32,987 nt of DNA from Gemmatimonadota bacterium (GTDB lineage: Bacteria; Latescibacterota; UBA2968; UBA8231). The notes beneath the pieces are model-generated. The model did not search any database and was not told the origin of the DNA. It worked only from the letters and a program-made list of their open reading frames with translations. Positions 892 to 14,391 of this stretch are shown here, in pieces. The stretch is taken from the NCBI GenBank assembly GCA_002712305.1, contig PATE01000045.1:41368-74354 (forward strand), given 5' to 3'. Position 1 is the stretch's first letter, and each line of letters starts with the position of its first letter. Position numbers and translations under genes: made by a program.

Positions 892-1638
892 CTACACAGG
901 CCGCGACCTTTCAAGCAGGGGCGCACAGGTCTGGCAGGCTTGGTCGTATTCCTCGACGGAATCGATTTCTGCCCATGGCAGATCCGTCACATCTGCGATT
1001 GACAACCGTCTTTGCTCCACCAGCGGGCCGTAGGCTGCCGTGGGAAACGTGTCGAGTGTATCGTTGGCCACCATGCGCTCGACTTCCTCACGCACCAAGT
1101 CGCCGTCGGAGGGCTTGAGGAGGATGATCTGGGCACTGACTGCCTGCGTCGTGAGAGGATCGAGCTGTTTGCTGATGGCCTCCACACGCTCCTCTGAATC
1201 GAGACGGATGTTCATCTCACCTGCCAGTCGCGGCCGCTGCGTGTCAGCGGCGATGCAGGACCCACCCATCTGCGTCATTCGGTGAGGCAGTCGTGCATCG
1301 AAGAGGATGTCGCAGTTGCACAGGAATGTCCCTTGTCGCCCCCAGTCACCGAGCGTCAGGTAGAGGGAGTAGATGGAGTTGGTCGATTCCCAGCGCTCGT
1401 TGTTCACATATGTGACGTCCAAGCCATATCGGCTCCCGTCCCCGCAGTGCTCCCGGACCATGTGCTCGAGATACCCGACCACGAGGCAGACCCGGGTTAC
1501 ACCCGCCTCTGCCAGCGAATGGATCTGGTGGTCGAGGAGGGTGCCCGTCGCACCGATCGCCACCAGGCACTTTGGGCATTGGGCGGTGAGAGGGCGCAGG
1601 CGGGTACCGGCGCCAGCAGCGAGAATGACGGCATCCAT
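892..1638 (-). CDS. Sugar/alcohol-phosphate nucleotidyltransferase (LicC-like)
   Basis: A 248-residue NTP-transferase-fold enzyme that would activate a phosphorylated alcohol or sugar with an NTP. The N terminus carries the nucleotide-binding signature LAAGAGTRLRPLT followed by PKCLV. A region reading ESTNSIYSLYLT resembles the substrate loop of choline- and inositol-phosphate cytidylyltransferases, and CNCDILF occupies the place of the usual metal-binding GD/GDN site. It starts at ATG 1638 with no strong ribosome site visible. It diverges from the operon at 1968, whose first gene is a paralogue, so both probably serve the same lipid headgroup pathway. Family assignment is firm. The substrate, and CTP as donor, are inferred from the adjacent CDP-alcohol phosphatidyltransferase. 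Confidence 0.85.
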   Translation of the reverse strand: MDAVILAAGAGTRLRPLTAQCPKCLVAIGATGTLLDHQIHSLAEAGVTRVCLVVGYLEHMVREHCGDGSRYGLDVTYVNNERWESTNSIYSLYLTLGDWGRQGTFLCNCDILFDARLPHRMTQMGGSCIAADTQRPRLAGEMNIRLDSEERVEAISKQLDPLTTQAVSAQIILLKPSDGDLVREEVERMVANDTLDTFPTAAYGPLVEQRRLSIADVTDLPWAEIDSVEEYDQACQTCAPLLERSRPV

Positions 1639-1967: not shown

Positions 1968-2735
1968 TTGAAAGCCCTGATTCTGGCCGCCGGACGTGGC
2001 CGACGCTTGTGGCCCTATACCCGGCAGACGCCCAAGTGCCTGCTGACGATCGAACCCCAGGTATCGATCCTGCAGCGTCAGATCTCACTGCTGAGTGCCG
2101 CGGGCGTCGATCGTATCGTCGTCGTGGCGGGGTTTGGCTTCGAGCAAGTGCGCGCCTCGACCGCCGGTGATTCCCATGTGAGGGTGATGTACAATCCATT
2201 CTACGCCGTCGCCGACAATCTCATCAGTCTTTGGGCCGCCCGGGCCGAGATGGACGACGATCTTCTCATCGTCAATGGTGACAACGTCTTCCACCCGGAC
2301 ATGCTGACGTATCTGCTGCAACCTGTCGCTTCGAACTGCCAGTTGCTTGTTCAGAGAAAGCCACGGTATGACGACGACGACATGAAGGTGACGATTCGTG
2401 CAGGGTCGTTGCAGGCGATCGGCAAGGAACTGCCCGCCGAGTGTATCGATGCCGCGTCGGTGGGACTGCTGGGTTTCAGGGGAGCGGGCGTGGGGCAACT
2501 GCACGAGATCCTCGAGGAAGCGGTGCAGGTCGAGGGTGCCATGAGCAGCTACTATCTCGACGGCATCCAGCGCCTTGCCCAGGGCGGGATCAGCATTCAG
2601 TGTGTGGATTCGGAGCAGGTGCCCTGGGCCGATATCGACACGCCCCAGGATCTGGCAAAGGTTCGCGAGCAACTCGATCGTTTTGGCTCGCACGGAAGCC
2701 TCACCCAACCCTCTGCTGCACCGAGGCTCGCATGA
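1968..2735 (+). CDS. Nucleotidyltransferase, first gene of lipid operon
   Basis: A 255-residue NTP transferase that activates an alcohol- or sugar-phosphate, probably as its CDP derivative. The signature LAAGRGRRLWPYT followed by PKCLL is at residues 5-25. ADNLISLWAAR matches the substrate-loop region of LicC-like cytidylyltransferases, and VNGDNVFH holds the metal-binding aspartate. Near the C terminus, PWADIDTPQDLAKVRE is typical of the family. Translation starts at TTG 1968, directly before the first conserved strand. Its stop codon overlaps the next gene's ATG (ATGA at 2732-2735), implying translational coupling with the phosphatidyltransferase that would use its product. It is paralogous to the divergent gene at 892-1638. 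The exact alcohol is unknown. Confidence 0.87.
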   Translation: MKALILAAGRGRRLWPYTRQTPKCLLTIEPQVSILQRQISLLSAAGVDRIVVVAGFGFEQVRASTAGDSHVRVMYNPFYAVADNLISLWAARAEMDDDLLIVNGDNVFHPDMLTYLLQPVASNCQLLVQRKPRYDDDDMKVTIRAGSLQAIGKELPAECIDAASVGLLGFRGAGVGQLHEILEEAVQVEGAMSSYYLDGIQRLAQGGISIQCVDSEQVPWADIDTPQDLAKVREQLDRFGSHGSLTQPSAAPRLA

Positions 2736-4144
2736 ATCTGGCGGGCCTTCTTGTCTTCGACGACAGTGATGACGGTCGTCAGATCGCAGAGCGATCCTTC
2801 GGTGGATTGCGCCTTTTGGAGCGTGGGATTCGTACCATGGCCCGTGCCGGGGTGCGGCGCCTGCTCGTGGTGACGGCGCCAGGTACAAGAACGACGGTCG
2901 GCAAGGTGACGGACCGCCTGGATCTCGAGCTTGAATTTGTGGAGTGGGGCACCAAACCGCATATGCGTTTCGGGGCGGGCGAAGACGTTCTGTGCCTGTT
3001 CGGAGACCACGCTCACCATCACACGTCGCTGAGCGACCTTGTCGCCGACGGCACCGGCGCCGACGAGGTGGTGATCCAGGTGGCACCCGCCTCGCAGCAG
3101 ATCGAGCTGCTGGTGGCACAGGTGAGCGACTTGGATGCGGGCCACCAGATGCAGTTGGCATGGGCCCCCGGCCCTGTCGAAGAAGCAAGCACGGGGGCTT
3201 TCCTCGTCGATGGCGCATTGACGCCCCATGAAATCTCAACCTCCGGTGCCCCTCTGATTGACTTCCTGAGGGTCCGCAGTGCCGGATGGGCGTTGCGAAC
3301 CAAGGCCGGCGAGGCCCACCTGTGGCGGCGCGTCATCGATCGCCGCACGGCCCGCGCCGCCCGAGCCATGCTCTTTGGCCAGGTGACGAAAGCCACCAGT
3401 GGCCCGATTTCCCGGCATCTGAATGCTCGCATGTCGATCCCGATCAGCAAGCTTCTGATCGAGACGGGCATCTCTCCACACATGGTCACCGTACTGTTTG
3501 TGATGTCCACCGGACTGACCGCAGCCTATCTGATGTCACATCCCATGCCACACTGGCGCCTGGCCCTCGCCGGATTCCTGTGGCAGATGGCAGCCGTCCT
3601 CGACCGCTGTGATGGCGAAATCGCCCGTGTGAAACTGTGTGAATCACAGTTTGGCGCCTGGTTCGATACCGTGACTGACAATATCGCCTACCTGAGTGCC
3701 TACGTGGCCTTCCTCGTTGCAGTGACCAAGCTGCATCCGGATCAGCCCTTGTTCCTTTACGCAGGCTACTCCGCCATTCTGGCCATGCTGCTGAGTCTGG
3801 GCATCATGTACCACTACGCATTGAAGACGGGCAATGGTTCCCTGCAGAAATACCTTGTGGGATATGCGGCACTACCGCCCGAACAGAAGGGCGTACTGTA
3901 TCGGCTTCTCGAACGTTATTCGTTCGTGGCGAAGCGAGATTTCTTCGCCTTCGTCCACTTCGTCTTTGCCATCCTCAATCAGTTTGACATGATCTATCTG
4001 TACACTGTGGGTGGTCTGCATCTGATGACATTGGGTGTCGTGATCTCCCAGCGAAAGATGCTGACCTACCACGCAGAGAATGGCTCGATGGAGCCCTCGC
4101 CTGGGCAGTCTGCGACGGGCGCCGCGGCGCAGGATTCCCGATGA
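2732..4144 (+). CDS. CDP-alcohol phosphatidyltransferase with degenerate NTase-like N-terminal domain
   Basis: A 470-residue membrane enzyme that transfers a phospho-alcohol from a CDP-alcohol to an acceptor. The CDP-alcohol transferase signature DG-x2-AR-x8-G-x3-D-x3-D is complete at residues 294-316, preceded by the segment SIPISKLLIETGISPHMVT, which is typical of the di-myo-inositol-phosphate-phosphate synthase branch, and followed by several membrane helices. The N-terminal 230 or so residues have the layout of a nucleotidyltransferase (a domain that is fused and active in IPCT/DIPPS enzymes), but the GxGxR loop is replaced by FDDSDDGRQ, so it is probably inactive for nucleotide transfer. 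ATG 2732 overlaps the previous stop. An open frame to 2441 lies inside the previous gene and is rejected. Product identity is inferred, not shown. Confidence 0.88.
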   Translation: MNLAGLLVFDDSDDGRQIAERSFGGLRLLERGIRTMARAGVRRLLVVTAPGTRTTVGKVTDRLDLELEFVEWGTKPHMRFGAGEDVLCLFGDHAHHHTSLSDLVADGTGADEVVIQVAPASQQIELLVAQVSDLDAGHQMQLAWAPGPVEEASTGAFLVDGALTPHEISTSGAPLIDFLRVRSAGWALRTKAGEAHLWRRVIDRRTARAARAMLFGQVTKATSGPISRHLNARMSIPISKLLIETGISPHMVTVLFVMSTGLTAAYLMSHPMPHWRLALAGFLWQMAAVLDRCDGEIARVKLCESQFGAWFDTVTDNIAYLSAYVAFLVAVTKLHPDQPLFLYAGYSAILAMLLSLGIMYHYALKTGNGSLQKYLVGYAALPPEQKGVLYRLLERYSFVAKRDFFAFVHFVFAILNQFDMIYLYTVGGLHLMTLGVVISQRKMLTYHAENGSMEPSPGQSATGAAAQDSR

Positions 4145-4169: not shown

Positions 4170-5213
4170 GTGAAGATTCTCCGGTTCCTGCTTCCCGGGC
4201 TTGGCCTTCTGCTGCTCGGTTATCTCATCGGTACCCTGGGATTGGGCGAGATCCTGTCTAACCTTGCCGTGATGAAATGGGCCTTCCCCCTCGTGCTGCT
4301 GCTGGCCACCGGCTGGCATGTGACCAATTCCATCGCATGGTCCTTCGCCTTTCCGTCAGGCGCCTTCCGGCCAGGCCTGCTGACACTGATTCGGGCGAAA
4401 CTGGCCGGCGAAGCAGTCAATCAATTGACGCCCCTGGCCAATCTCGGAGGCGAACCGCTCAAGGCCTTTCTCCTGCGCCATCAATCCCCCACGTCACGTG
4501 GCCTGGCATCCGTCGTGATCAACAAGACGGGTCAGGTGTTCACGGGACTCGCTTTTACGGCGATTGGGCTGTTGTTGGTGGTGCTTCACTGGGAGTTGCC
4601 GCAGGCCTTGCCCGTCCCCGTGCAGGGCGGATTGCTGGCTCTCTTCTGTTTTGCCGCGCTGTTGCTGGTACTGATGGTGCGCAAGCAGCGGCACATGTTC
4701 ACATCATTGCTGAACTTCCTCAAGCGCTTTGGCCTGCATCTGGAGGCCCTCGAGAGCCGGATGGCCAAGGCCGTCCGCATCGACGAGAACATCTCCCGCT
4801 TCTATCGAGAATCAAAGGGCCGCTTCTGTCTGGTCATGCTGTTTCACGCCGCCGGCTGGATGTTGGGCGCGTGCGAAACCTTTGTGATCCTTCGTGCGCT
4901 GGGTGCGCCGATCGCCTTCGATGTGGCGTTCTTGATCACGGCGCTGACCCTGCTGATCAACAGTCTGTTTTTTTTCATGCCGTCAAACATCGGCGTGCTG
5001 GAAGGCGGTCAGGTATTTCTCTTCCTGACCCTGGGACTCGACCCGGCGATGGGCCTGTCTCTCGGTATCATCAAGCGCATGCGCAAGATCTTCTGGATCG
5101 GCCTGGGTTGGCTCTTTCTCGCCCAGCTGAGTCGTTCGTTTCACTCGATGACCGCCTTCCCATCGACAGATGACTCGACCATGGGTGTCGTCTCCCGCGG
5201 GGAAGCCTCGTGA
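4170..5213 (+). CDS. UPF0104/HpnL-like integral membrane protein (lipid flippase-type)
   Basis: About 347 residues with seven to eight hydrophobic helices. It carries hallmarks of the lysylphosphatidylglycerol-synthase transmembrane family (UPF0104, including HpnL): a conserved segment reading NQLTPLANLGGEPLKAF, and MPSNIGVLEGG before the last helices. Members are implicated in lipid flipping or lipid modification. No aminoacyl-transferase domain is attached. GTG 4170 is chosen because GAAGAG (4158-4163) stands six bases before it and the protein then begins with its first helix. The frame is open back to ATG 4080, which would overlap the previous gene by 65 bases and add Arg-rich sequence. 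Its place between a phosphatidyltransferase and export genes suggests it moves the new lipid across the inner membrane (inference). Confidence 0.8.
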   Translation: MKILRFLLPGLGLLLLGYLIGTLGLGEILSNLAVMKWAFPLVLLLATGWHVTNSIAWSFAFPSGAFRPGLLTLIRAKLAGEAVNQLTPLANLGGEPLKAFLLRHQSPTSRGLASVVINKTGQVFTGLAFTAIGLLLVVLHWELPQALPVPVQGGLLALFCFAALLLVLMVRKQRHMFTSLLNFLKRFGLHLEALESRMAKAVRIDENISRFYRESKGRFCLVMLFHAAGWMLGACETFVILRALGAPIAFDVAFLITALTLLINSLFFFMPSNIGVLEGGQVFLFLTLGLDPAMGLSLGIIKRMRKIFWIGLGWLFLAQLSRSFHSMTAFPSTDDSTMGVVSRGEAS

Positions 5214-6559
5214 TGCCGCGCATCTGGTGGCGGAGGCCGATGTATAGCCTGCTGACCGGCACATTGCTGTTGTGCGCCGCAACGTCGCAGGCCGAACCCG
5301 CGACGTACGATCTGCCGACGCTCATCGACCGCGCCCTGGAGCACAACGCCGAGATCCTGGAGAGTCGTGCCAAAGTCGCCGAAGCACGTGCGACACAGCG
5401 TCAAGCGCGCGGAGCCTTTGTCCTTCCCCGTCTGCGCCTGGAGAGTTATGGTGGCCTCACGCCAGATGCGAAAGGCGACGTGTTCAACCCTCCTTCGGAT
5501 ACATCGGGTGTTCGCGCTCTGGGCCCCTTCGCCCGTGCTCAACTCGAATTTATCCAACCCCTGTATACCTTCGGCCGGCTGACCCATCTGCACAGAGCAG
5601 CTGAGGCGGGGGTTTCCGCCCAGCAGGCGCAACTTGCCGATTCACGAGGTGAAATCATTCACCAGGTGAAGGAGCTGTACTACGGAATCCTCCTTGCTCA
5701 GGATCTGACCAGCCTGGCGCGGCGTCTGAGAGACGAACTCGCCACCTGGGAGGATGAAGTGACCCTCGATAACCCTGACATCCCCGTATCAGCGCCGTAC
5801 AAACTGCAACTGGCCCTGCTTGAGTTGGAGAACCGATCGGCTCAGTTGGAGGATGGACTCCGCTTCGCGCGATCTGCCCTGGCCTGGAAAACGGGGCTTT
5901 CGGAAGCGGACGACTTCGTCCTCGCCGACGAGTTGTCCCCCACCGATACCGCCCTTCCCTCGATCGAGGAACTTCACTCGCGAGGTCTACAGCAGCGGCC
6001 CGAGTGGCGCCACCTGCAGGCAGGACTGGCGGCGCGCCATGCCCAGGAACAGGCAGCGCGTAGCGCCTACTATCCGCAGGTGTTCCTCAGCGGCGGGATT
6101 CGGTATGCCGTGGCGCCGGGGCGAACCGATCAGCACAACCCGTTCGTCAAAGACGAGTTCAATCTCTTCAACGGTGGCGTCTTTCTCGGGCTGCGTCAGT
6201 CCTTCGAGTGGGACATGCTCGGTGCCGATCTCGACAAAGCCCGCGCCAAGAGGCTCCAACTCGAGGCGCTGCAGACCACGGCGGCCCAGGGGATTCGTGT
6301 GGATATCCGTCGTGCCTACGACGAATACCACGCCTCCACACGAGAGGTGGCCACCGCACTCAAGGCCCGCAATCTGACCCGGGAGTGGCTGCAATTGGCG
6401 CAGGACGAATACGAGTTGGAACCCGGATCCGTGAAGGAACTCGTGAGTGCCTTCGAGGCCTTGGCGGCCTCCGAGGAGTCCTACTACCGCGCCCTGCATC
6501 GGGATCATCTTGCCCTCGCCGAGTTGGAGCGTGCTATCGGAGGACCGGTGAATCCATGA
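5213..6559 (+). CDS. TolC-family outer-membrane efflux channel
   Basis: About 448 residues with a signal peptide ending near ATSQAEP and then two repeats of the outer-membrane efflux protein fold. Markers are TYDLPTLIDRALEHNAEI at the N terminus, the strand-turn FIQPLYTFGRL in the first half and LRQSFEWDMLGADLDKARAKRLQ at the equivalent position in the second, with long amphipathic helices after each. Such proteins form trimeric channels across the outer membrane and periplasm. Start codons GTG 5210 and ATG 5213 overlap the stop of the previous gene. A GGGGAAG ribosome site just upstream suits ATG 5213. No membrane-fusion adaptor gene is present in the cluster. The RND protein four genes on is not of the tripartite drug-efflux type, so the usual partner is missing. 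Confidence 0.87.
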   Translation: MPRIWWRRPMYSLLTGTLLLCAATSQAEPATYDLPTLIDRALEHNAEILESRAKVAEARATQRQARGAFVLPRLRLESYGGLTPDAKGDVFNPPSDTSGVRALGPFARAQLEFIQPLYTFGRLTHLHRAAEAGVSAQQAQLADSRGEIIHQVKELYYGILLAQDLTSLARRLRDELATWEDEVTLDNPDIPVSAPYKLQLALLELENRSAQLEDGLRFARSALAWKTGLSEADDFVLADELSPTDTALPSIEELHSRGLQQRPEWRHLQAGLAARHAQEQAARSAYYPQVFLSGGIRYAVAPGRTDQHNPFVKDEFNLFNGGVFLGLRQSFEWDMLGADLDKARAKRLQLEALQTTAAQGIRVDIRRAYDEYHASTREVATALKARNLTREWLQLAQDEYELEPGSVKELVSAFEALAASEESYYRALHRDHLALAELERAIGGPVNP

Positions 6560-7902
6560 ACGGCTACCGGATCATGACAAGATGTGCTGCAGTTGCAGTC
6601 CTGATACTGGGTTGGGCTTCGTCCTCTCTGGCAAGCCGCGCCGACGGACACACGTGGTTCGTGGAGCAACTGACGCACCTGAACGAAGCTCGCGCCCAGT
6701 CGAATCCCCAATCGCTGGCCGTAGATCTGGTGGAACGCCTGGTTCGGGTTGATCGCTTCTCACAGCGCGCTTTCGACGACTACCTCGAACGCAGCCTCGA
6801 AGACTATGAGCAGTTCCTGGCGCCGGAGGAATTGCTCCATCTCGTCGAACAACACCGCCTCCAGCTTCACGATGCCATCCGTACACGACTGATCGCTGAC
6901 CTTAACGGTTGGCTGGGCGGAGACGAGGGTCGTGAGTGGCAATTGGTGGACGCGAAATTCGACAAGGGCACAGGGCATGTGACCGTGTCGGCCGATACTC
7001 ACGCCGTCACACTGTATCTGCGTCGACAAGATGGGCAGTGGTCGGTCACCGACGCAGGTACCCAGCAGATCAGACTCAGCGATCACTATCGCCGACTCGT
7101 GGCTGACATTCTCGACAGCGACTATTCACTGGCCGTGTTGAAGGCACGACTGAAGGAGCGCCATGACGTCGTGATCGAGGATTTCTCCCGTTCCAGGCCT
7201 GGCGTTCTGCCCGAGGGCTGGGGGTGGCGTCGCAAGCGTGACGATCGCAAGGCGAAGTTGTATCGCGTTCAGGAAACGGCGAACAAGCGATATCTTGCGG
7301 CCCAGGACACAGGCGCATCGGTCATTCTGCTGAAGTGGTCGCACTGGAATCCACACGAGCATCCCATTATGACCTGGTGCTGGAGGGCCGATGCCCTGCC
7401 ACCGGGCGGCGATGAGCGCTTCAGTCACACCAATGACAGCGCCGCCGGCATCTACGTGATCTACAGCCAGAACTGGCTCGGTCTTCCAAAACAGATCAAG
7501 TATGTGTGGAGTACCACCCTCCCAGAGGGTACCGTCGACCGCCGGGACATGATTGCCCGCCCTTATTTCTTCGTCCTGGAGAGTGGCGAAAAACACAAGG
7601 GTGAGTGGGTCTTCGAAATGACGGATGTTGTGAAGGACTATGAGAGGGTTTTCGGATCATCTCCGAAGGATCGTACATTGGGGATTGGACTGCTCACCGA
7701 TGCAAACTCCACCGACTCCTATGCTGCGGCCTACTACGCAGACATCCGCGTATGGCCTCGTGAAGCGCGAGAGGATGGGCAGATCACCGACTACTGTGGA
7801 GATCTGCGGGAACCGGCCACGGGGCATGGCGGTCAAAGCCGCACCACATTTGCGGTCAACTCCACTGAAGCCGGCGCTGCAGCGAAGGCGGCGGGAGAAT
7901 GA
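6556..7902 (+). CDS. MlaC-like plus DUF3047 fusion, exported
   Basis: A 448-residue secreted protein. A signal peptide (residues 1-26, ending SSLASRA) is followed by a helix-rich region at about 30-200 whose pattern (LVERLVRVDRFSQRAFDDYL, a middle of charged helices, then a beta section) resembles the MlaC/Tgt2 lipid-carrier domain. From about residue 206 to 405 comes a DUF3047 domain: IEDFSRSRPGVLPEGW at its start, the tryptophan-rich core MTWCWRADALPPGGDE, and YYADIRVW at its end. ATG 6556 overlaps the previous stop (ATGA), and its own stop overlaps the next gene in the same way. DUF3047 has no assigned function that I know of. The MlaC resemblance is judged by eye and is weaker than for the next gene. 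A periplasmic lipid-handling role is inferred from context. Confidence 0.75.
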   Translation: MNGYRIMTRCAAVAVLILGWASSSLASRADGHTWFVEQLTHLNEARAQSNPQSLAVDLVERLVRVDRFSQRAFDDYLERSLEDYEQFLAPEELLHLVEQHRLQLHDAIRTRLIADLNGWLGGDEGREWQLVDAKFDKGTGHVTVSADTHAVTLYLRRQDGQWSVTDAGTQQIRLSDHYRRLVADILDSDYSLAVLKARLKERHDVVIEDFSRSRPGVLPEGWGWRRKRDDRKAKLYRVQETANKRYLAAQDTGASVILLKWSHWNPHEHPIMTWCWRADALPPGGDERFSHTNDSAAGIYVIYSQNWLGLPKQIKYVWSTTLPEGTVDRRDMIARPYFFVLESGEKHKGEWVFEMTDVVKDYERVFGSSPKDRTLGIGLLTDANSTDSYAAAYYADIRVWPREAREDGQITDYCGDLREPATGHGGQSRTTFAVNSTEAGAAAKAAGE

Positions 7903-8525
7903 AGATGAAACCGATACCGACAGTCGTGATGATCTTTGCCGTAACACTCGCCTTCGCCGAAGAAGGTGACACGGCGGCTTTCTCGGCGCCCACGGCCTAC
8001 CTGAAACAACTGGATTCAAACGTGCAGGCCATTGTCCGAGCCGACGGAGCTGACACCCTTTCGGCGCAGGAAAACGCCCAGGTCCGTACACTGATCAATG
8101 GTGCCTTCGACTTTGAAGAGCTGAGCCGACTTTCCCTCGGCGATCACTGGAATGAGCGCACAGCCCAGGAGCGCGACGAATTTGTCAGGATCTACCAGGG
8201 GATCATCGAACGGCGCAACTTCGACATCTTCGTCCAATACTATCGAGAGGGCGAGATCAACTATGTCGACGAGGCCATCGATGAGGGCGGCCGGGCTCGC
8301 GTCGAGGCCCAGGTGCCGATGAAACGAGAGACCAAACAGATCGTCTACGCCCTTCACCAGCCAGCGGGCCAGGACTGGCGGATCTACGATCTATCCATCG
8401 ATGGAGCCAGCACCGTCACCGGGAATCGCCGAACCTATGGCCGCTACATCGCTCGCCACTCCTTCGACAAGCTGATGGAGCGCCTGCGCGCTCAACTGTC
8501 GGCGCTACAGCAAACCGACGAATAG
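7899..8525 (+). CDS. MlaC/Tgt2-family periplasmic lipid-binding protein (HpnM-like)
   Basis: A 208-residue exported protein with a short signal peptide ending near AFAEE. It carries the family's core motif: FDFEELSRLSLGDHW at about residues 67-81, then TAQERDEFVRIYQGIIERR. A beta-rich section (ARVEAQVPMK, WRIYDLSIDGAS) and a final helix follow. MlaC proteins shuttle single phospholipids between inner-membrane and outer-membrane complexes; the related HpnM belongs to hopanoid export loci. ATG 7899 overlaps the previous stop by four bases. No MlaD, MlaE or MlaF gene is nearby. The next gene is an RND transporter, as with HpnM and HpnN, so this carrier probably accepts lipid from or hands it to that transporter (inference). 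Confidence 0.88.
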   Translation: MKMKPIPTVVMIFAVTLAFAEEGDTAAFSAPTAYLKQLDSNVQAIVRADGADTLSAQENAQVRTLINGAFDFEELSRLSLGDHWNERTAQERDEFVRIYQGIIERRNFDIFVQYYREGEINYVDEAIDEGGRARVEAQVPMKRETKQIVYALHQPAGQDWRIYDLSIDGASTVTGNRRTYGRYIARHSFDKLMERLRAQLSALQQTDE

Positions 8526-8547: not shown

Positions 8548-10926
8548 ATGCGCAGCTACGAACGAATCGTCCACTACGTCTTCCACCATCACATCAGCAT
8601 TATTCTGGTGTCGCTGGTGCTGTCGATCGTGGCGGGTTCGTTCGCGGCCCAACTGAAGATCAAGGCAGACTCGGCGAATCTGCTCCCTGACGACTATGTC
8701 AGCGTCCGCGAATTGAATCGGATCAAGGAACGCGTCGGAGGGATTGGACCACTGATGGTCATCGTCAGTGGTGACGACCTGGCTGCCTGCGTCGACTTCA
8801 TGCATGCCCTGGCCGACTCTCTCGACGGCAGTCCCCTGATCAGCTCCGTGATCCGCGGCCGCACAGCGGAGATGGAGTTTCTCAGCAAGAATCGGCTCCT
8901 CTACATGGATCTGGAGGATCTTCAGGAACTCCATCAGCGAGTTGCCGACAAGATCGAGCTGGAGACGTTGAAAAAGAACCCCTTCTACATGGGGTTCGAA
9001 GAGGAAGAGGAAGATCCCCTCGACGTCAGTGACATCGAGGCCAAATACGAACACTACGAGCTGAGTGGGTACGATCGAGACTACTACCTGACCGAGGAGG
9101 GCACTGGCGTCATCCTCCGATTGTATCCCACGGGGGTCATTACCGACTCCAAGTTCACCAAGAAGCTGCTCGGACAGCTCGACCAAACCATCGAAGCTCT
9201 CGATGCGAAACGTTATCACCCCAGCCTCGAGGTGATCTACAAGGGCAGCTTCAAGAATGCATCGACCCAGTATACGGTCGTGCTCCAGGATCTGAAGTCG
9301 ACGGCCCTGTATGCACTCTTCGGGGTCATCGTTCTGATCAGTCTCTACTTCCGACGCCTTCTGTCGCCGCTGTTTATCGTCTTTCCGCTGTTAATGAGCC
9401 TGTCCTGGACTTTCGGCGTCACCTTTTTCGTCATCGGCAACCTGAATCAGATTACCGTCTGTCTCTTCGCCATCCTCTTCGGGCTGGGCATCGACTTCGG
9501 GATCCACATCTTCGCCCGATACCGCGAGGCTCGGCGGCGGGGCATGGATATTGAGCAGGCTCTGGTGGAAACCGTCTGCCACACGGGCAGTGCGCTGACG
9601 ACGACGGCACTGACAACGGCGGTGGCCTTCTTCTCGCTCTTATTCTCTGACTTCAAGGGATTCAGCGAGTTTGGGTTCATCGTCGGCACAGGCATCCTCT
9701 TCTCTCTGGTTGCCATGGTGGTCGTTTGTCCTGCGTTCATCGTGTTGGCCGAACGACTAACCCTCATTCGGTTTCAGCAGGCCAGCGTTCCAGAGCATCT
9801 CATCCGGCGTGGGCGTTACCCGGTGCCCCATCTCACCCTGTTGCTGGGTGTGCTCGCAACCGCCTACTCCCTCTACCACATCAGCGACCTTCGTTTTGAG
9901 TGGGACTTCAGGAAGCTGAAACCGGAGGTCGAGACGACGGGCCCGGAGGCGAGCCTCCCCGACAAGTTGAAGGAGACACGCTCACCGGCAATTGTGCTGA
10001 CGGAGAGTCGCGCCGAGGCGATGGCCGTCGTGGCTGAAGTCGAACGAATCCGGACCGAACGCGGCGACAGTTCCACCGTGTTGTCCGTGCAAAGCGTCTA
10101 CTCCTTCCTGCCTGCCGACCAAGAACAGAAGCTTGACCTGATCACCGATCTGCAGACGATGATCGATACCAACATTGAGTTGCTGGACCAGAAGGATCGA
10201 AGTCGTGTCGATTCATTGCGCCAATACTTCGATGTCCAGGAGTTGGCCCTGACGGATCTGCCGAGGGAAATGACCAAGAGTTTCTCGAGCAAGGAAGGCG
10301 AAATCCTGAACTTCGTGCAGATCAACGCCTCCGTGCCGCTGCGCGATGGTCGCAACTCTATCAACTTTGCCCGTGAGGTGAAGGTCATCGAGACCGAACT
10401 GGGCACGTTCTACGCCTCCAGTTCCCACATCATCTTTGCGGAGATGCTGGAACTGATGCTCGACGACGCCGTCATCGCCGTCATCGTCACACTCCTGGTA
10501 GTGGGCGTCGTGCTGGTCATCGACCTGGGTAGCATTTTGAGCGCCGCTCTCGTGCTCACTCCCCTGCTGACAGCACTGGCGTGGGTGACGGGGCTGATGT
10601 ATGTGCTCGACTTCCGCATCAACATCTACAACATGGTCGCCTTCCCCACGATCATCGGCATGGGGATCGACAATGCCGTCCACATCTTTCATCGATATCG
10701 CGAAGCTGGCGTGGGATCTCTTCGATTGGTCATGCGCACGACGGGAATGGCCTTGCTGGCCACGACGCTGACAACGATGGTGGGCTTCGCGGGACTGGTC
10801 CCCGCCCATCACCCGGCACTGTATTGGATCGGCACCGTATCTCTACTGGGATTGGGATGCGCTTTCATCACCGCCGTGTCTCTGCTGCCTGCATTGCTAC
10901 AGTTGATCGAGAGACGTTCGGATTAG
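8548..10926 (+). CDS. RND/MMPL-family lipid transporter (HpnN-like)
   Basis: A 792-residue inner-membrane protein with the duplicated RND layout: one helix near residue 15, a periplasmic domain (about 40-255), five helices, a second helix and periplasmic domain, then five more helices. The two halves carry matching motifs, GLGIDFGIHIFARYREA near residue 312 and GMGIDNAVHIFHRYREA near 704, each followed by a TTLTT-type turn (ALTTTALTTAVAF and LLATTLTTMVGF). These fit proton-driven HpnN/MMPL-type lipid exporters rather than AcrB-type drug pumps, which are about 1,000 residues. It ends the operon, 22 bases after the MlaC gene. Substrate is inferred from context as the lipid made by the upstream enzymes. 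Confidence 0.88.
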   Translation: MRSYERIVHYVFHHHISIILVSLVLSIVAGSFAAQLKIKADSANLLPDDYVSVRELNRIKERVGGIGPLMVIVSGDDLAACVDFMHALADSLDGSPLISSVIRGRTAEMEFLSKNRLLYMDLEDLQELHQRVADKIELETLKKNPFYMGFEEEEEDPLDVSDIEAKYEHYELSGYDRDYYLTEEGTGVILRLYPTGVITDSKFTKKLLGQLDQTIEALDAKRYHPSLEVIYKGSFKNASTQYTVVLQDLKSTALYALFGVIVLISLYFRRLLSPLFIVFPLLMSLSWTFGVTFFVIGNLNQITVCLFAILFGLGIDFGIHIFARYREARRRGMDIEQALVETVCHTGSALTTTALTTAVAFFSLLFSDFKGFSEFGFIVGTGILFSLVAMVVVCPAFIVLAERLTLIRFQQASVPEHLIRRGRYPVPHLTLLLGVLATAYSLYHISDLRFEWDFRKLKPEVETTGPEASLPDKLKETRSPAIVLTESRAEAMAVVAEVERIRTERGDSSTVLSVQSVYSFLPADQEQKLDLITDLQTMIDTNIELLDQKDRSRVDSLRQYFDVQELALTDLPREMTKSFSSKEGEILNFVQINASVPLRDGRNSINFAREVKVIETELGTFYASSSHIIFAEMLELMLDDAVIAVIVTLLVVGVVLVIDLGSILSAALVLTPLLTALAWVTGLMYVLDFRINIYNMVAFPTIIGMGIDNAVHIFHRYREAGVGSLRLVMRTTGMALLATTLTTMVGFAGLVPAHHPALYWIGTVSLLGLGCAFITAVSLLPALLQLIERRSD

Positions 10927-11034: not shown

Positions 11035-11051
11035 GATATGACGCCGAGAAA

Positions 11052-11127
11052 TGGAGCGGGAGACGAGACTCGAACTCGCGACAACCACGTTGGCAACGTG
11101 GGGCTCTACCAACTGAGCTACTCCCGC
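11052..11127 (-). tRNA. tRNA-Gly (anticodon GCC)
   Basis: The reverse complement folds as a full 76-base tRNA. The acceptor arms GCGGGAG and CTCCCGC are perfectly paired. The D arm reads TAGCTCAGTTGGTAGAGC, the anticodon stem-loop CCACG-TTGCCAA-CGTGG has anticodon GCC, and the T arm contains GTTCGAGTC. Discriminator base T is followed by an encoded CCA. It is flanked by its own promoter and terminator and points away from the lipoprotein gene at 11152. Confidence 0.96.
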
Positions 11128-11142
11128 TTGGAGCAGAAATGG

Positions 11143-11171
11143 AATATAGAGGTGGCCAAAAATAGCGTCAA
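11143..11171 (-). promoter_or_regulatory. Predicted promoter of tRNA-Gly
   Basis: On the minus strand TTGACG (complement of 11166-11171) is followed after exactly 17 bases by TATATT (complement of 11143-11148). The -10 ends 15 bases before the mature tRNA 5' end. The -35 box lies within the first codons of the divergently read lipoprotein gene. Confidence 0.65.
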
Positions 11172-14100
11172 GATGATCGTCCTGTTCGCTGCCCTGATTT
11201 CAGTGGTCCTGACGGGATGCTCAGACTCGTATCAGACCGATCTGTCGCAGTCCCAGACCCGATCCCGGTGGCACAACAGCCAGGGCGTCGTCTACATGGA
11301 TCAGCACAACTACACGGCAGGTCGCAGTCAGTTCGAGAAGGCCCTGGCCTTGGACTCTCTGTTCCCTACAGCTCATGCAAATCTGGGAATTGCCCTCTAC
11401 AGCCTTGGGAAATTCGACAGCGCACGCGCCGAGCTGGTCGCCTGTCTCGCACTGAACCCGAAGCATCTGCACGCCAACTATACCCTTGGCCTGATCGACC
11501 TCGCTGGAGGCGACAACTACGAACGGGCGCTGGCCTCATTCCAACAGGTCGCCGATATCGATGGCGACGACCCTCTCGTCCAGTATCACCTCGGACGGAC
11601 CTTGGCGAAACTGGGTCGTTCAGACGATGCTCTGGCCGCCTATGGCAGGGCGATTGAGCTGGATGAGAATCTTCTGTCCGCCCACTACGCCAGAGCACAC
11701 GAGTTGCGTCAGTTGGGCCGGACCGAAGACTGGCGGCAGGCTCTGTCCGTCTTCGACCGGCTGTCGAAGGCTGGGTTTGAGGGTGTGAGCACGACCTACC
11801 AGGGCCAGGGGAAGTACGCGGAGGCTCGTGTGGAGGGACACTTCGGATCGGGCGGTGATGATCGAATGTCGCCGATTCACCTAGCTGATCCTGTTCCGAT
11901 CACGGGCTTGCACAGGGCCCACGTGGCGGTGGACACCGATGGCGACGGATTGGCAGAGTTGATCGGCCCCTCCCCAGATGGGAATACGCTGCAGATCCTC
12001 GCGAAGCAGTCCAATGGGTGGACCGCGGCATCGTCGTGGTACGTGCCGCCAGGCATCCAGGCACACACGACACTGATCGGTGATATCGATGATGACGGCG
12101 ATCTGGACCTGCTCGTCTCAAGCGGCCAACTCGGTTCTGATCCGACAAACAAGCTGTTGCGCCAGCAGAACGGCCGGTTCGTGGCCGAGGCCCTCGGCTT
12201 GGAAGGCAGCGCCCACGCCCTGGGAGATATCGACCACGACGGTGACTACGATGTGGTGAGCTTCTCATCGGGACTGCGTCTGGCCTCAGGGAACGGCACC
12301 GGAGGCTTTTCGGACATCACAGATGAGGCCCTTGGCTTGGAGTTTCTGTCCCCAAGTCGCGCCGTGTTCACCGATACCGACAACGATCGGGACGTGGACC
12401 TGATCGCCGCCGGTTCGAGGATGGCCCTGTTCTCCAACAATCGGGACGGCACGCTCACAGATCTGGCCACCGAACGACAACTCACACAACTCGACAGCGC
12501 CCTCGATCTGGCCGTCTTCGATCTGCTTCCCGACGGGCACCTCGATGTGGTTGGCCTGGGGCCAGATGCGCTGCAGGTGGCCAGCAATGACGCGGGGAGA
12601 GGGTATTCGATCCATCAGCAGATGCCGGTGGAGGACGCACACACGGTGAGGGTTGCTGATCTCGACAACGATGGCGATCTCGACCTGGTTCTGGGAGGAG
12701 ACGACCAGGTCCAGATCGTGTTGTCGTCGGCGGGGCAACTGCAAGCGCCGCAGCCCATCGCGACAGGTAGGCCTGCATCAACGGTGGTCGTCAACGACCT
12801 GGATGGCGACGGGCGAATCGACATCGTGGCCGGCAACCAGGTGCTGATGAACGAGACTAAGAACCTCGGACACTGGGTCAATATCAGCCTGTCGGGCCTC
12901 AACAGTGTCGCCGACGGAGTGGGCTCAAAAGTCGAGATCCATACCTCGACGACGCAGCAGAAACGTGAGGTTCGAGCCGGTGCGGGTGACGGGAGGACTC
13001 TGCACGTCGGGATCGGGTCCGCCGATTCGGTGGAGTTCATTCGGATCCTATGGCCCAGCGGCGTTCGCCAGGCTGAACTGGCAACGGCGGCAGACCAGAT
13101 GCTGCACTTTGAGGAACTGAATCGAAAGGGCACATCCTGCCCGATCCTGTATGCGTGGGATGGGACCGACTACCGATTCGTCTCCGACTTCCTCGGTGGG
13201 GCCATCATCGGGTATCTGACCGAGCCGGGCCAATACTACCCGCCAGACACCGATGAATACGTGCGTATCCCGCATCTGCAACCACGCCAGGGTCGCTACG
13301 AACTCCAGATCGGCAACCAGCTGGAAGAGATTCTCTATCTGGACGCAGCCGAGCTTGTGGCCGTCGATCATCCAATAGGGACAACGCTGTTCCCGAACGA
13401 GCGACTGCTTTCATCTCCCCCTTACCCGTCGCACCAACCCTATGCGTTGGCAGATCTGCGCCCGCCACAGAGGGTGACAGATCACGCTGGACGGGACGTG
13501 ACGTCAGCCCTGGTGGCCGTCGATGACGAATGGTATACGGACTTTGATCATCGCCCGATCCACGGTTATGCGGCGCCCTACAGCCTTACATTGGATCTTG
13601 GAGATCTGAGTTCGTGGGAGCACCCGGTCCTCGTCGCCCACGGGTGGGTCGACTATGCGCATTCCACGAGCAACTGGGCCGCCTCACAGCGAGAGCTCTC
13701 GCTGTTCCCGCCACGTCTGGAAGTCGAGGATGCAAACGGCACATGGCGACTGATCACGACAGACATGGGCACCCCTGCTGGTCTGCCCAAGGACATGGTC
13801 TTCGATCTGTCCGACGCCCTGACAGAGGACGTCGATCGTGTGCGCCTTCGGATCACAACATCCATGTCCATCTACTGGGACCAGTTCCAGGTCGGCCGCT
13901 CCGTCGGACAATACAGCGTGCAGCGAGCGCGATTCGACGAAGCGGACCTGCATTGGCGGGGCTATCCGGTCCATGAATCGATCCATGGCACCTTCGCCTT
14001 CCGCTACGATCATTCGCAGGTAAACACAGAGGCGCCTTGGGGAACACACGCAGGAGCATACACGCGATTCGGCGACGTGAGCGAACTCACCGATCAGATC

Positions 14101-14391
14101 GACGATCGGTTCGCCATCATGTTTCACGGGGATGAGCTGACATTGACCGTCGGCGCGGACAATTTTGGCCCGGTCCGGGAAGGATGGACGCGCTCTTTCC
14201 TGTTCTATGCGGATGGATTCGGCAAGGATATGGACTTTCACTCGGCCCATTCTCTGACAGTGGAGCCTCTTCCCTTTCACGGGATGAGTCGGTATCCATA
14301 CGGCCCAGATGAAACCTATCCACAGTCACCGGAGCATGTCAGCTATCGCCTCGACTACAACACACGCAGAATCAAGGGATTCTACGAGTAG
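11152..14391 (+). CDS. TPR / FG-GAP / ASPIC-UnbV lipoprotein
   Basis: About 1,079 residues. A lipoprotein signal with lipobox LTGC puts the lipidated cysteine at residue 23. Tetratricopeptide repeats cover about 40-215 (for example AHANLGIALYSLGKFDSARAE). A seven-bladed-type FG-GAP/VCBS region (about 245-565) follows, with calcium-loop motifs DTDGDGLAEL, DIDDDGDLDLL, DIDHDGDYDVV, DLDNDGDLDLV and DLDGDGRIDIV. An ASPIC/UnbV domain spans about 573-650 (ADGVGSKVEI, LWPSGVRQ), then a long beta-rich C-terminal region begins near GTSCPILYAWDG. Such proteins are envelope-anchored or surface scaffolds of unknown ligand. GTG 11152 gives a positively charged n-region; ATG 11173 is the alternative. An open frame to 11038 runs through the tRNA gene and is rejected. 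No own promoter is evident. Confidence 0.85.
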   Translation: MAKNSVKMIVLFAALISVVLTGCSDSYQTDLSQSQTRSRWHNSQGVVYMDQHNYTAGRSQFEKALALDSLFPTAHANLGIALYSLGKFDSARAELVACLALNPKHLHANYTLGLIDLAGGDNYERALASFQQVADIDGDDPLVQYHLGRTLAKLGRSDDALAAYGRAIELDENLLSAHYARAHELRQLGRTEDWRQALSVFDRLSKAGFEGVSTTYQGQGKYAEARVEGHFGSGGDDRMSPIHLADPVPITGLHRAHVAVDTDGDGLAELIGPSPDGNTLQILAKQSNGWTAASSWYVPPGIQAHTTLIGDIDDDGDLDLLVSSGQLGSDPTNKLLRQQNGRFVAEALGLEGSAHALGDIDHDGDYDVVSFSSGLRLASGNGTGGFSDITDEALGLEFLSPSRAVFTDTDNDRDVDLIAAGSRMALFSNNRDGTLTDLATERQLTQLDSALDLAVFDLLPDGHLDVVGLGPDALQVASNDAGRGYSIHQQMPVEDAHTVRVADLDNDGDLDLVLGGDDQVQIVLSSAGQLQAPQPIATGRPASTVVVNDLDGDGRIDIVAGNQVLMNETKNLGHWVNISLSGLNSVADGVGSKVEIHTSTTQQKREVRAGAGDGRTLHVGIGSADSVEFIRILWPSGVRQAELATAADQMLHFEELNRKGTSCPILYAWDGTDYRFVSDFLGGAIIGYLTEPGQYYPPDTDEYVRIPHLQPRQGRYELQIGNQLEEILYLDAAELVAVDHPIGTTLFPNERLLSSPPYPSHQPYALADLRPPQRVTDHAGRDVTSALVAVDDEWYTDFDHRPIHGYAAPYSLTLDLGDLSSWEHPVLVAHGWVDYAHSTSNWAASQRELSLFPPRLEVEDANGTWRLITTDMGTPAGLPKDMVFDLSDALTEDVDRVRLRITTSMSIYWDQFQVGRSVGQYSVQRARFDEADLHWRGYPVHESIHGTFAFRYDHSQVNTEAPWGTHAGAYTRFGDVSELTDQIDDRFAIMFHGDELTLTVGADNFGPVREGWTRSFLFYADGFGKDMDFHSAHSLTVEPLPFHGMSRYPYGPDETYPQSPEHVSYRLDYNTRRIKGFYE

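Follow-up and report, generated by a model that had tools for sequence, protein, structure and literature searches.

An MlaC-DUF3047 fusion protein encoded in an operon predicted to make, flip, and export a polar lipid

The open reading frame at positions 6556-7902 of the window, by which we mean the whole 32,987-nucleotide stretch of DNA analyzed here, encodes a true fusion of an MlaC domain to DUF3047. In our best reading, the surrounding operon would serve the synthesis, flipping, and outer-membrane export of a lipid with a phospho-headgroup, and the fusion would be a second periplasmic carrier or adaptor. That the window contains an operon dedicated to making, flipping, and exporting a polar lipid, with the fusion as its second periplasmic component, we judge about as likely as not. 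We computed the fusion itself, the predicted folds of its two halves, the operon and its conservation, and the absence of MlaA from the window's family and of a hopene cyclase from the window's genome; the cargo, the direction of transport, lipid binding, and the contacts between partners we infer.

Our survey covered 64 genomes of one phylum, mostly drafts, including the window's own genome (G000, 90.9% complete) and 25 genomes of the window's family, 19 of them with the fusion. A scan of the genome collection with the whole fusion found a single close relative; among named records, a Gemmatimonadetes MAG is closest, at 72% identity. The operon runs from a nucleotidyltransferase through a CDP-alcohol phosphotransferase, an HpnL-like flippase, TolC, the fusion, and MlaC to an HpnN-like RND transporter:

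892-1638, minus strand: NTP-transferase of the MobA/NTP_transf_3 type, divergent from the operon (Pfam PF00483/PF12804; synteny)
1968-2735, plus strand: NTP-transferase, head-group cytidylyltransferase-like (PF12804, E 4e-14)
2684-4144, plus strand: CDP-alcohol phosphotransferase with a nucleotidyltransferase-like N-terminal region (PF01066, E 1e-8; start by inspection)
4182-5213, plus strand: HpnL-like/LPG-synthase-TM flippase-like protein (PF03706, E 2e-30)
5210-6559, plus strand: TolC-family outer-membrane channel (PF02321, E 3e-33)
6556-7902, plus strand: MlaC-DUF3047 fusion protein, 448 aa (Pfam, profile tests, AlphaFold model, orthologues)
7899-8525, plus strand: single-domain MlaC, HpnM-like (PF05494, E 1e-27; TIGR03481, 71 bits, cut-off 160)
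8548-10926, plus strand: MMPL/HAE3-type RND transporter, HpnN-like (PF03176, E 2e-38; TIGR03480, E 2e-87, 294 bits, cut-off 752)

In the family loci that we read, the genes from TolC to RND keep their order, and the single-domain MlaC is the only MlaC gene of G000 above the Pfam cut-off. The flippase-like protein scores under the cut-off of the HpnL model TIGR03476 (145 bits; cut-off 195.65) and over that of TIGR00374 (67.3 bits; cut-off 43.2). The product of 1968-2735 aligns with the first domain of the IPCT/DIPP synthase model NF041135 (E 2.6e-18) and that of 2684-4144 with its second half (E 5e-24), both below the cut-off (66 and 85 bits; cut-off 580 bits). Pfam and NCBIfam scans of the operon proteins found no HlyD-type domain.

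The divergent NTP-transferase stays near the operon in many relatives (L034, L035, L038, L042-L045, L060, and L065). In relatives, its surroundings also include a second gene of the CDP-alcohol phosphotransferase-like kind and one resembling a polysaccharide flippase, which might form a parallel branch of synthesis, at these loci:

L042:10272-11525
L044:16827-17999
L038:11187-12761
L065:1439-3019

On the 3' side of the RND gene, where several relatives also have large ORFs, the ORF listed at 11038-14391 encodes a TPR/FG-GAP/ASPIC-UnbV protein; it crosses a tRNA on the opposite strand (11055-11127), and its true start is probably later, at about 11179.

Within and around the fusion gene, we assigned the following features:

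6539-6543, plus strand: GGAGG, Shine-Dalgarno-like, 5' of the fusion start (read in the sequence)
6556-6559, plus strand: ATGA overlap of the TolC stop and the fusion start (read in the sequence, exact)
6556-6633, plus strand: signal peptide, residues ~1-26 (by inspection only; Sec-type, no lipobox cysteine seen)
6640-7161, plus strand: predicted MlaC-fold domain, residues 29-202 (Z 16.2 to 5UWA; profile tests)
7168-7815, plus strand: DUF3047 domain, residues 205-420, predicted beta sandwich (PF11249; domain model; fold matches)
7899-7902, plus strand: ATGA overlap of the fusion stop and the MlaC start (read in the sequence, exact)

The first-pass annotation had described a fusion gene coupled by ATGA overlaps to TolC and to a true MlaC gene, and this description stands: the frame runs from ATG 6556 to a stop ending at 7902, both overlaps are exact, and the adjoining gene is a PF05494 match. 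A mechanical ORF list opens the same frame at GTG 6208; orthologue starts sit near ATG 6556. The fusion is an open frame in 19 genomes of the family, and a divergent fusion occurs in G044, a member of another family; hence it is no assembly artifact. An NCBIfam scan of the fusion protein gave no match.

The same annotation read an MlaC pattern in the N-terminal half. In the window sequence by itself this pattern is weak evidence, since the half has no match to the Pfam MlaC family (PF05494, cut-off 26 bits) even at E 1 and reaches only 8.0 bits against an MlaC HMM, where the best of 694 scored shuffles reached 6.9. The pattern is borne out at the level of the family. We built a profile from 19 orthologous fused N-halves, without any MlaC protein, and aligned it by hhalign with 17 operon MlaC proteins at a probability of 96.8 (E 2e-10), versus at most 0.6 for the controls (seven other profiles including operon proteins, reversed MlaC, and 10 column shuffles). 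Against the PDB, the four top matches of this MlaC-free profile are MlaC/Ttg2D chains (E 4e-5 to 1.2e-3), and across the 64 whole genomes it matches only the fusions (the family's and that of G044) and the MlaC gene of the same operon. The G044 fusion (L047) itself exceeds the Pfam MlaC cut-off (56.2 bits in one search, 58.7 in another). An AlphaFold model of the fusion (pLDDT 86.6, pTM 0.83) gives the N-terminal half an MlaC fold and not an unrelated one: residues 26-202 superpose on E. coli MlaC (5UWA) with Z 16.2 over 158 residues at 2.4 A.

The C-terminal half is a clear DUF3047, as the first reading had it: PF11249 covers residues 224-398 (E 4e-29) at 102 bits, above the Pfam gathering cut-off of 27. 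Compared with solved structures by sequence, DUF3047 has no significant match. Modeled alone, the domain is predicted (pLDDT 93.8) to be a beta sandwich of the carbohydrate-binding type. By structure it most resembles the sandwich domain of D-glucuronyl C5-epimerase (Z 14.1), followed by CFAP20 (Z 12.9), a complex I assembly intermediate chain (Z 11.4), and CBM11 (Z 11.2, 148 residues, 3.4 A), and then by CBM30, CBM4, and CBM16. We know of no sugar binding by CFAP20 or the complex I assembly factor, and CBM-like folds are common. The predicted fold is thus like the sandwich domains of CBM11, CBM30, CBM4, and the epimerase (Z ~10-14), but identity to them is ~12%, and sugar binding by DUF3047 is a prediction from the fold only.

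Eight polar positions (N91, D92, K113, Y114, S117, S141, D180, and T184 in domain numbering) are near-invariant even in distant DUF3047 proteins. Together with the epimerase match, they would suit an enzyme acting in the periplasm on the exported lipid, whose head group it would modify while the MlaC domain presents the lipid. However, the matched domain is only part of that epimerase, and no known catalytic motif was recognized; we regard such an enzyme as rather unlikely. No function has been described for DUF3047, and the only paper that we found to name it is a metagenome correlation study (PMC3597751).

The first-pass annotation had tied DUF3047 to lipid transport, and the gene neighborhoods uphold this for one clade and not for the family at large. 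In the operon clade, DUF3047 lies beside TolC and/or MlaC in 19 fused and 6 unfused cases, plus the divergent fusion in G044. Among family genomes with MlaC, an operon-type DUF3047 adjoins MlaC in 24 of 24; the one family genome without MlaC (G002) is also without DUF3047. Five genomes of genus g4, and G025 from another family, have a DUF3047 without the MlaC domain in the slot of the fusion. The G025 locus (L046) reads HpnL, TolC, DUF3047, and MlaC, then a radical SAM gene, with no RND gene adjoining. In genus g7, the fusion stays within the TolC-fusion-MlaC-RND order, and a second locus has an unfused DUF3047 after a CDP-alcohol phosphotransferase and an HpnL-like flippase (four loci read: L051, L052, L055, and L067). 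On the other side, 13 DUF3047 loci outside the operon clade have no MlaC, TolC, RND, or flippase match nearby, so that a tie to lipid transport does not hold for the DUF3047 family as a whole. Annotated neighbors of these outside copies include asparaginase, tryptophan synthase, glycosyltransferase, and DUF481-like genes.

After DUF3047 copies outside the clade stands a gene of ~435 aa with weak DUF481 matches (L050:1661-2959 and L063:8434-9756), and in L053 and L056 a similar-sized gene without a Pfam match. G000 has a second, divergent DUF3047 gene on contig C71 (L054:7935-8957) with no lipid-transport match nearby. A plasmid search for DUF3047 gave eight weak matches; among the three that we opened, the Ilyobacter one has polysaccharide genes nearby and mprF ~3.4 kb away. 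Family f7 (L083 and L090) has adjacent frames for TolC and MlaC, and neither an RND nor a DUF3047 match was seen nearby.

A related operon is found class-wide without DUF3047. In families f3 and f4 (L079-L082 and L084-L089), TolC is followed by a fused nucleotidyl/CDP-alcohol phosphotransferase, MlaC, and RND, and therefore the core can do without DUF3047. An HpnL-like gene precedes TolC in f3, and none was seen next to TolC in the f4 loci. Downstream there are usually genes for a 267 aa membrane protein, a GMC oxidoreductase, and an inositol-2-dehydrogenase-like protein. The f3 fused enzyme matches NF041135 over its full length (E 6e-73, 246 bits, under the cut-off of 580).

In phylogenetic trees, the operon-linked DUF3047 domains form one clade (support 94/96), and the unfused g4 copies nest among the fused ones with modest support (86/79), which suggests, by tree position, that the MlaC domain was lost in g4. 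No operon MlaC falls within the clade that the fused MlaC domains form, and the G044 domain lies between the two groups on a long branch; the fused domain hence looks like an old paralogue and not a fresh copy of the neighboring MlaC. In six pairs compared, the fused MlaC domain is 28-56% identical where DUF3047 is 62-90% identical; it is the least conserved operon part in all six, and DUF3047 is among the better conserved. Because the fused MlaC domain diverges fastest and is absent in g4 and G025, lipid holding by it may be non-essential, and this fast divergence and loss argue against a strictly required relay; for the two MlaC-type proteins in tandem, the first-pass annotation had suggested a relay or two cargo forms.

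The fusion might also be an incidental in-frame merger of neighboring genes, with a function no greater than that of its parts. The unfused DUF3047 in the same slot in g4 indicates that a merger is not needed, but the separate clade of the fused MlaC domains and the retention of the fusion across five genera of the family, together with the divergent fusion in G044, make an incidental merger very improbable.

We compared the operon with known lipid transport systems. The Mla pathway (MlaA-MlaC-MlaFEDB) shares the MlaC fold, which here occurs in two consecutive genes; in contrast to that pathway, the window's family is without MlaA, and in the operon an RND pump stands where that pathway has the MCE/ABC complex. 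MlaA was found in 0 of 25 family genomes with positive controls. MlaE homologues occur in 23 of the 25 and could be taken to favor canonical Mla phospholipid recycling with a variant MlaC. However, MlaC genes over the cut-off occur in the family only in this RND operon and not beside MlaE: G000 has its MlaC gene on contig 66 and its MlaE genes on contigs 115 and 25, and elsewhere they lie on other contigs or far apart. The operon is therefore not the six-part Mla pathway, and canonical recycling has only a slight chance of being correct. A published survey likewise places MlaABC mostly in Proteobacteria (PMC10665443).

The HpnL/HpnM/HpnN system has the same three kinds of protein (flippase-like, MlaC-type, and HAE3 RND) in one operon, and the window's versions each come nearest to the corresponding model (HpnL, HpnM, and HpnN, respectively). 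A hopanoid export system with an extra domain would account for this likeness, but all three scores are below the NCBIfam cut-offs, and the window operon adds TolC, the CDP-alcohol phosphotransferase, and MlaC-DUF3047. Hopene cyclase had no match in G000, and no match in the 64 genomes exceeded the cut-off; the single strong match (G042, 5.9e-83) lies outside the window's family. We rejected hopanoids as cargo on this negative search: they are unlikely because G000 is without a hopene cyclase, and we give a hopanoid export system very little credence.

Two further systems are built around a pump of this kind. In AmeABCD of Castellaniella defragrans, one outer-membrane protein and two periplasmic proteins accompany an HAE3 RND pump; AmeA is DUF1302, AmeB DUF1329/LolA-like, and AmeC COG4447 (PMC6394551). 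The window operon has the same plan with other parts (TolC, MlaC-DUF3047, and MlaC); a Pfam scan found no DUF1302 or DUF1329 protein in it, and OEP, MlaC, and DUF3047 instead. BstABC sterol transporters have an HpnN-like RND pump, BstA, and two binding proteins, and lie beside lipid-synthesis genes; BstB is PhnD-like, BstC is all-helical, and the bound lipid is a C-4 methyl sterol (PMC10942540). The window operon resembles them in its HpnN-like RND and its putative lipid-synthesis genes and differs in the types of binding protein.

Two AmeABCD periplasmic proteins were proposed as adaptors of the HAE3 pump (PMC6394551), and the fusion too might be an adaptor and no carrier, one that replaces an HlyD-type protein and bridges TolC and the pump or MlaC, with the MlaC fold a mere scaffold. 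The absence of an HlyD-type domain from the operon proteins scanned, the overlap of the fusion gene with tolC, and the contrast between a fast-evolving MlaC domain and a conserved DUF3047 all favor this. But f3 and f4 keep TolC, MlaC, and RND without DUF3047, so that coupling to TolC there needs no DUF3047, and the unfused DUF3047 of g7 goes with the CDP-alcohol phosphotransferase and flippase, not with TolC. A pure adaptor is in our view unlikely.

The synthesis genes bear on the cargo. The CTP activation of a phosphorylated head group that we predict for the window enzymes is the kind of reaction known from IPCT/DIPP synthase (NF041135) and CpgD; CpgD serves an unusual lipid, and its top structural match is inositol-1-phosphate cytidylyltransferase (PMC12275187). 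Unlike both, the window enzymes are linked to flippase and export genes. The f3 enzyme resembles IPCT/DIPP synthase in fusing the cytidylyl- and phosphotransferase, but it scores below the equivalog cut-off. Because it matches the model over its full length, it points to a phospho-cyclitol lipid as the putative cargo, on matches below NCBIfam cut-offs. We also tried PEP mutase (PF13714) as a marker of a phosphonate head group and rejected it, the family being too broad (controls positive in 11 of 14).

Under the lipid-export reading, the head group, a phosphorylated compound that is probably based on inositol or another cyclitol, would be activated by the nucleotidyltransferase as its CDP derivative, and the CDP-alcohol phosphotransferase would join it to a lipid alcohol. 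The HpnL-like protein would flip the lipid product, and the HAE3/HpnN-like RND pump would lift it out of the inner membrane. The single-domain MlaC could then ferry the lipid over the periplasm, with TolC as the probable outer-membrane element. The fusion would combine an old, fast-evolving MlaC paralogue, as a lipid-holding or spacer domain, with a conserved DUF3047 beta sandwich that most likely links the carrier to the exit by reading either the head group, which is sugar-like, or the TolC end. The fully specified version, a trans-envelope machine in which a head-group-reading MlaC-DUF3047 and MlaC pass a phospho-cyclitol lipid from the HAE3 RND pump through TolC to the outer membrane without MlaA, we put forward as a long shot.

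For most phyla, the route by which lipids get to the outer membrane is still an open question, and the host of the fusion belongs to a poorly known group of uncultured bacteria. Here, one operon seems to couple the synthesis, flipping, and export of a single lipid, with MlaC and an RND pump, in a family that lacks the MlaA-based pathway. For DUF3047, the analysis supplies a fold prediction and, within one clade, a specific pathway that can be tested. We suggest that this gives DUF3047 its first testable role, in an operon that appears to make and export an unusual membrane lipid.
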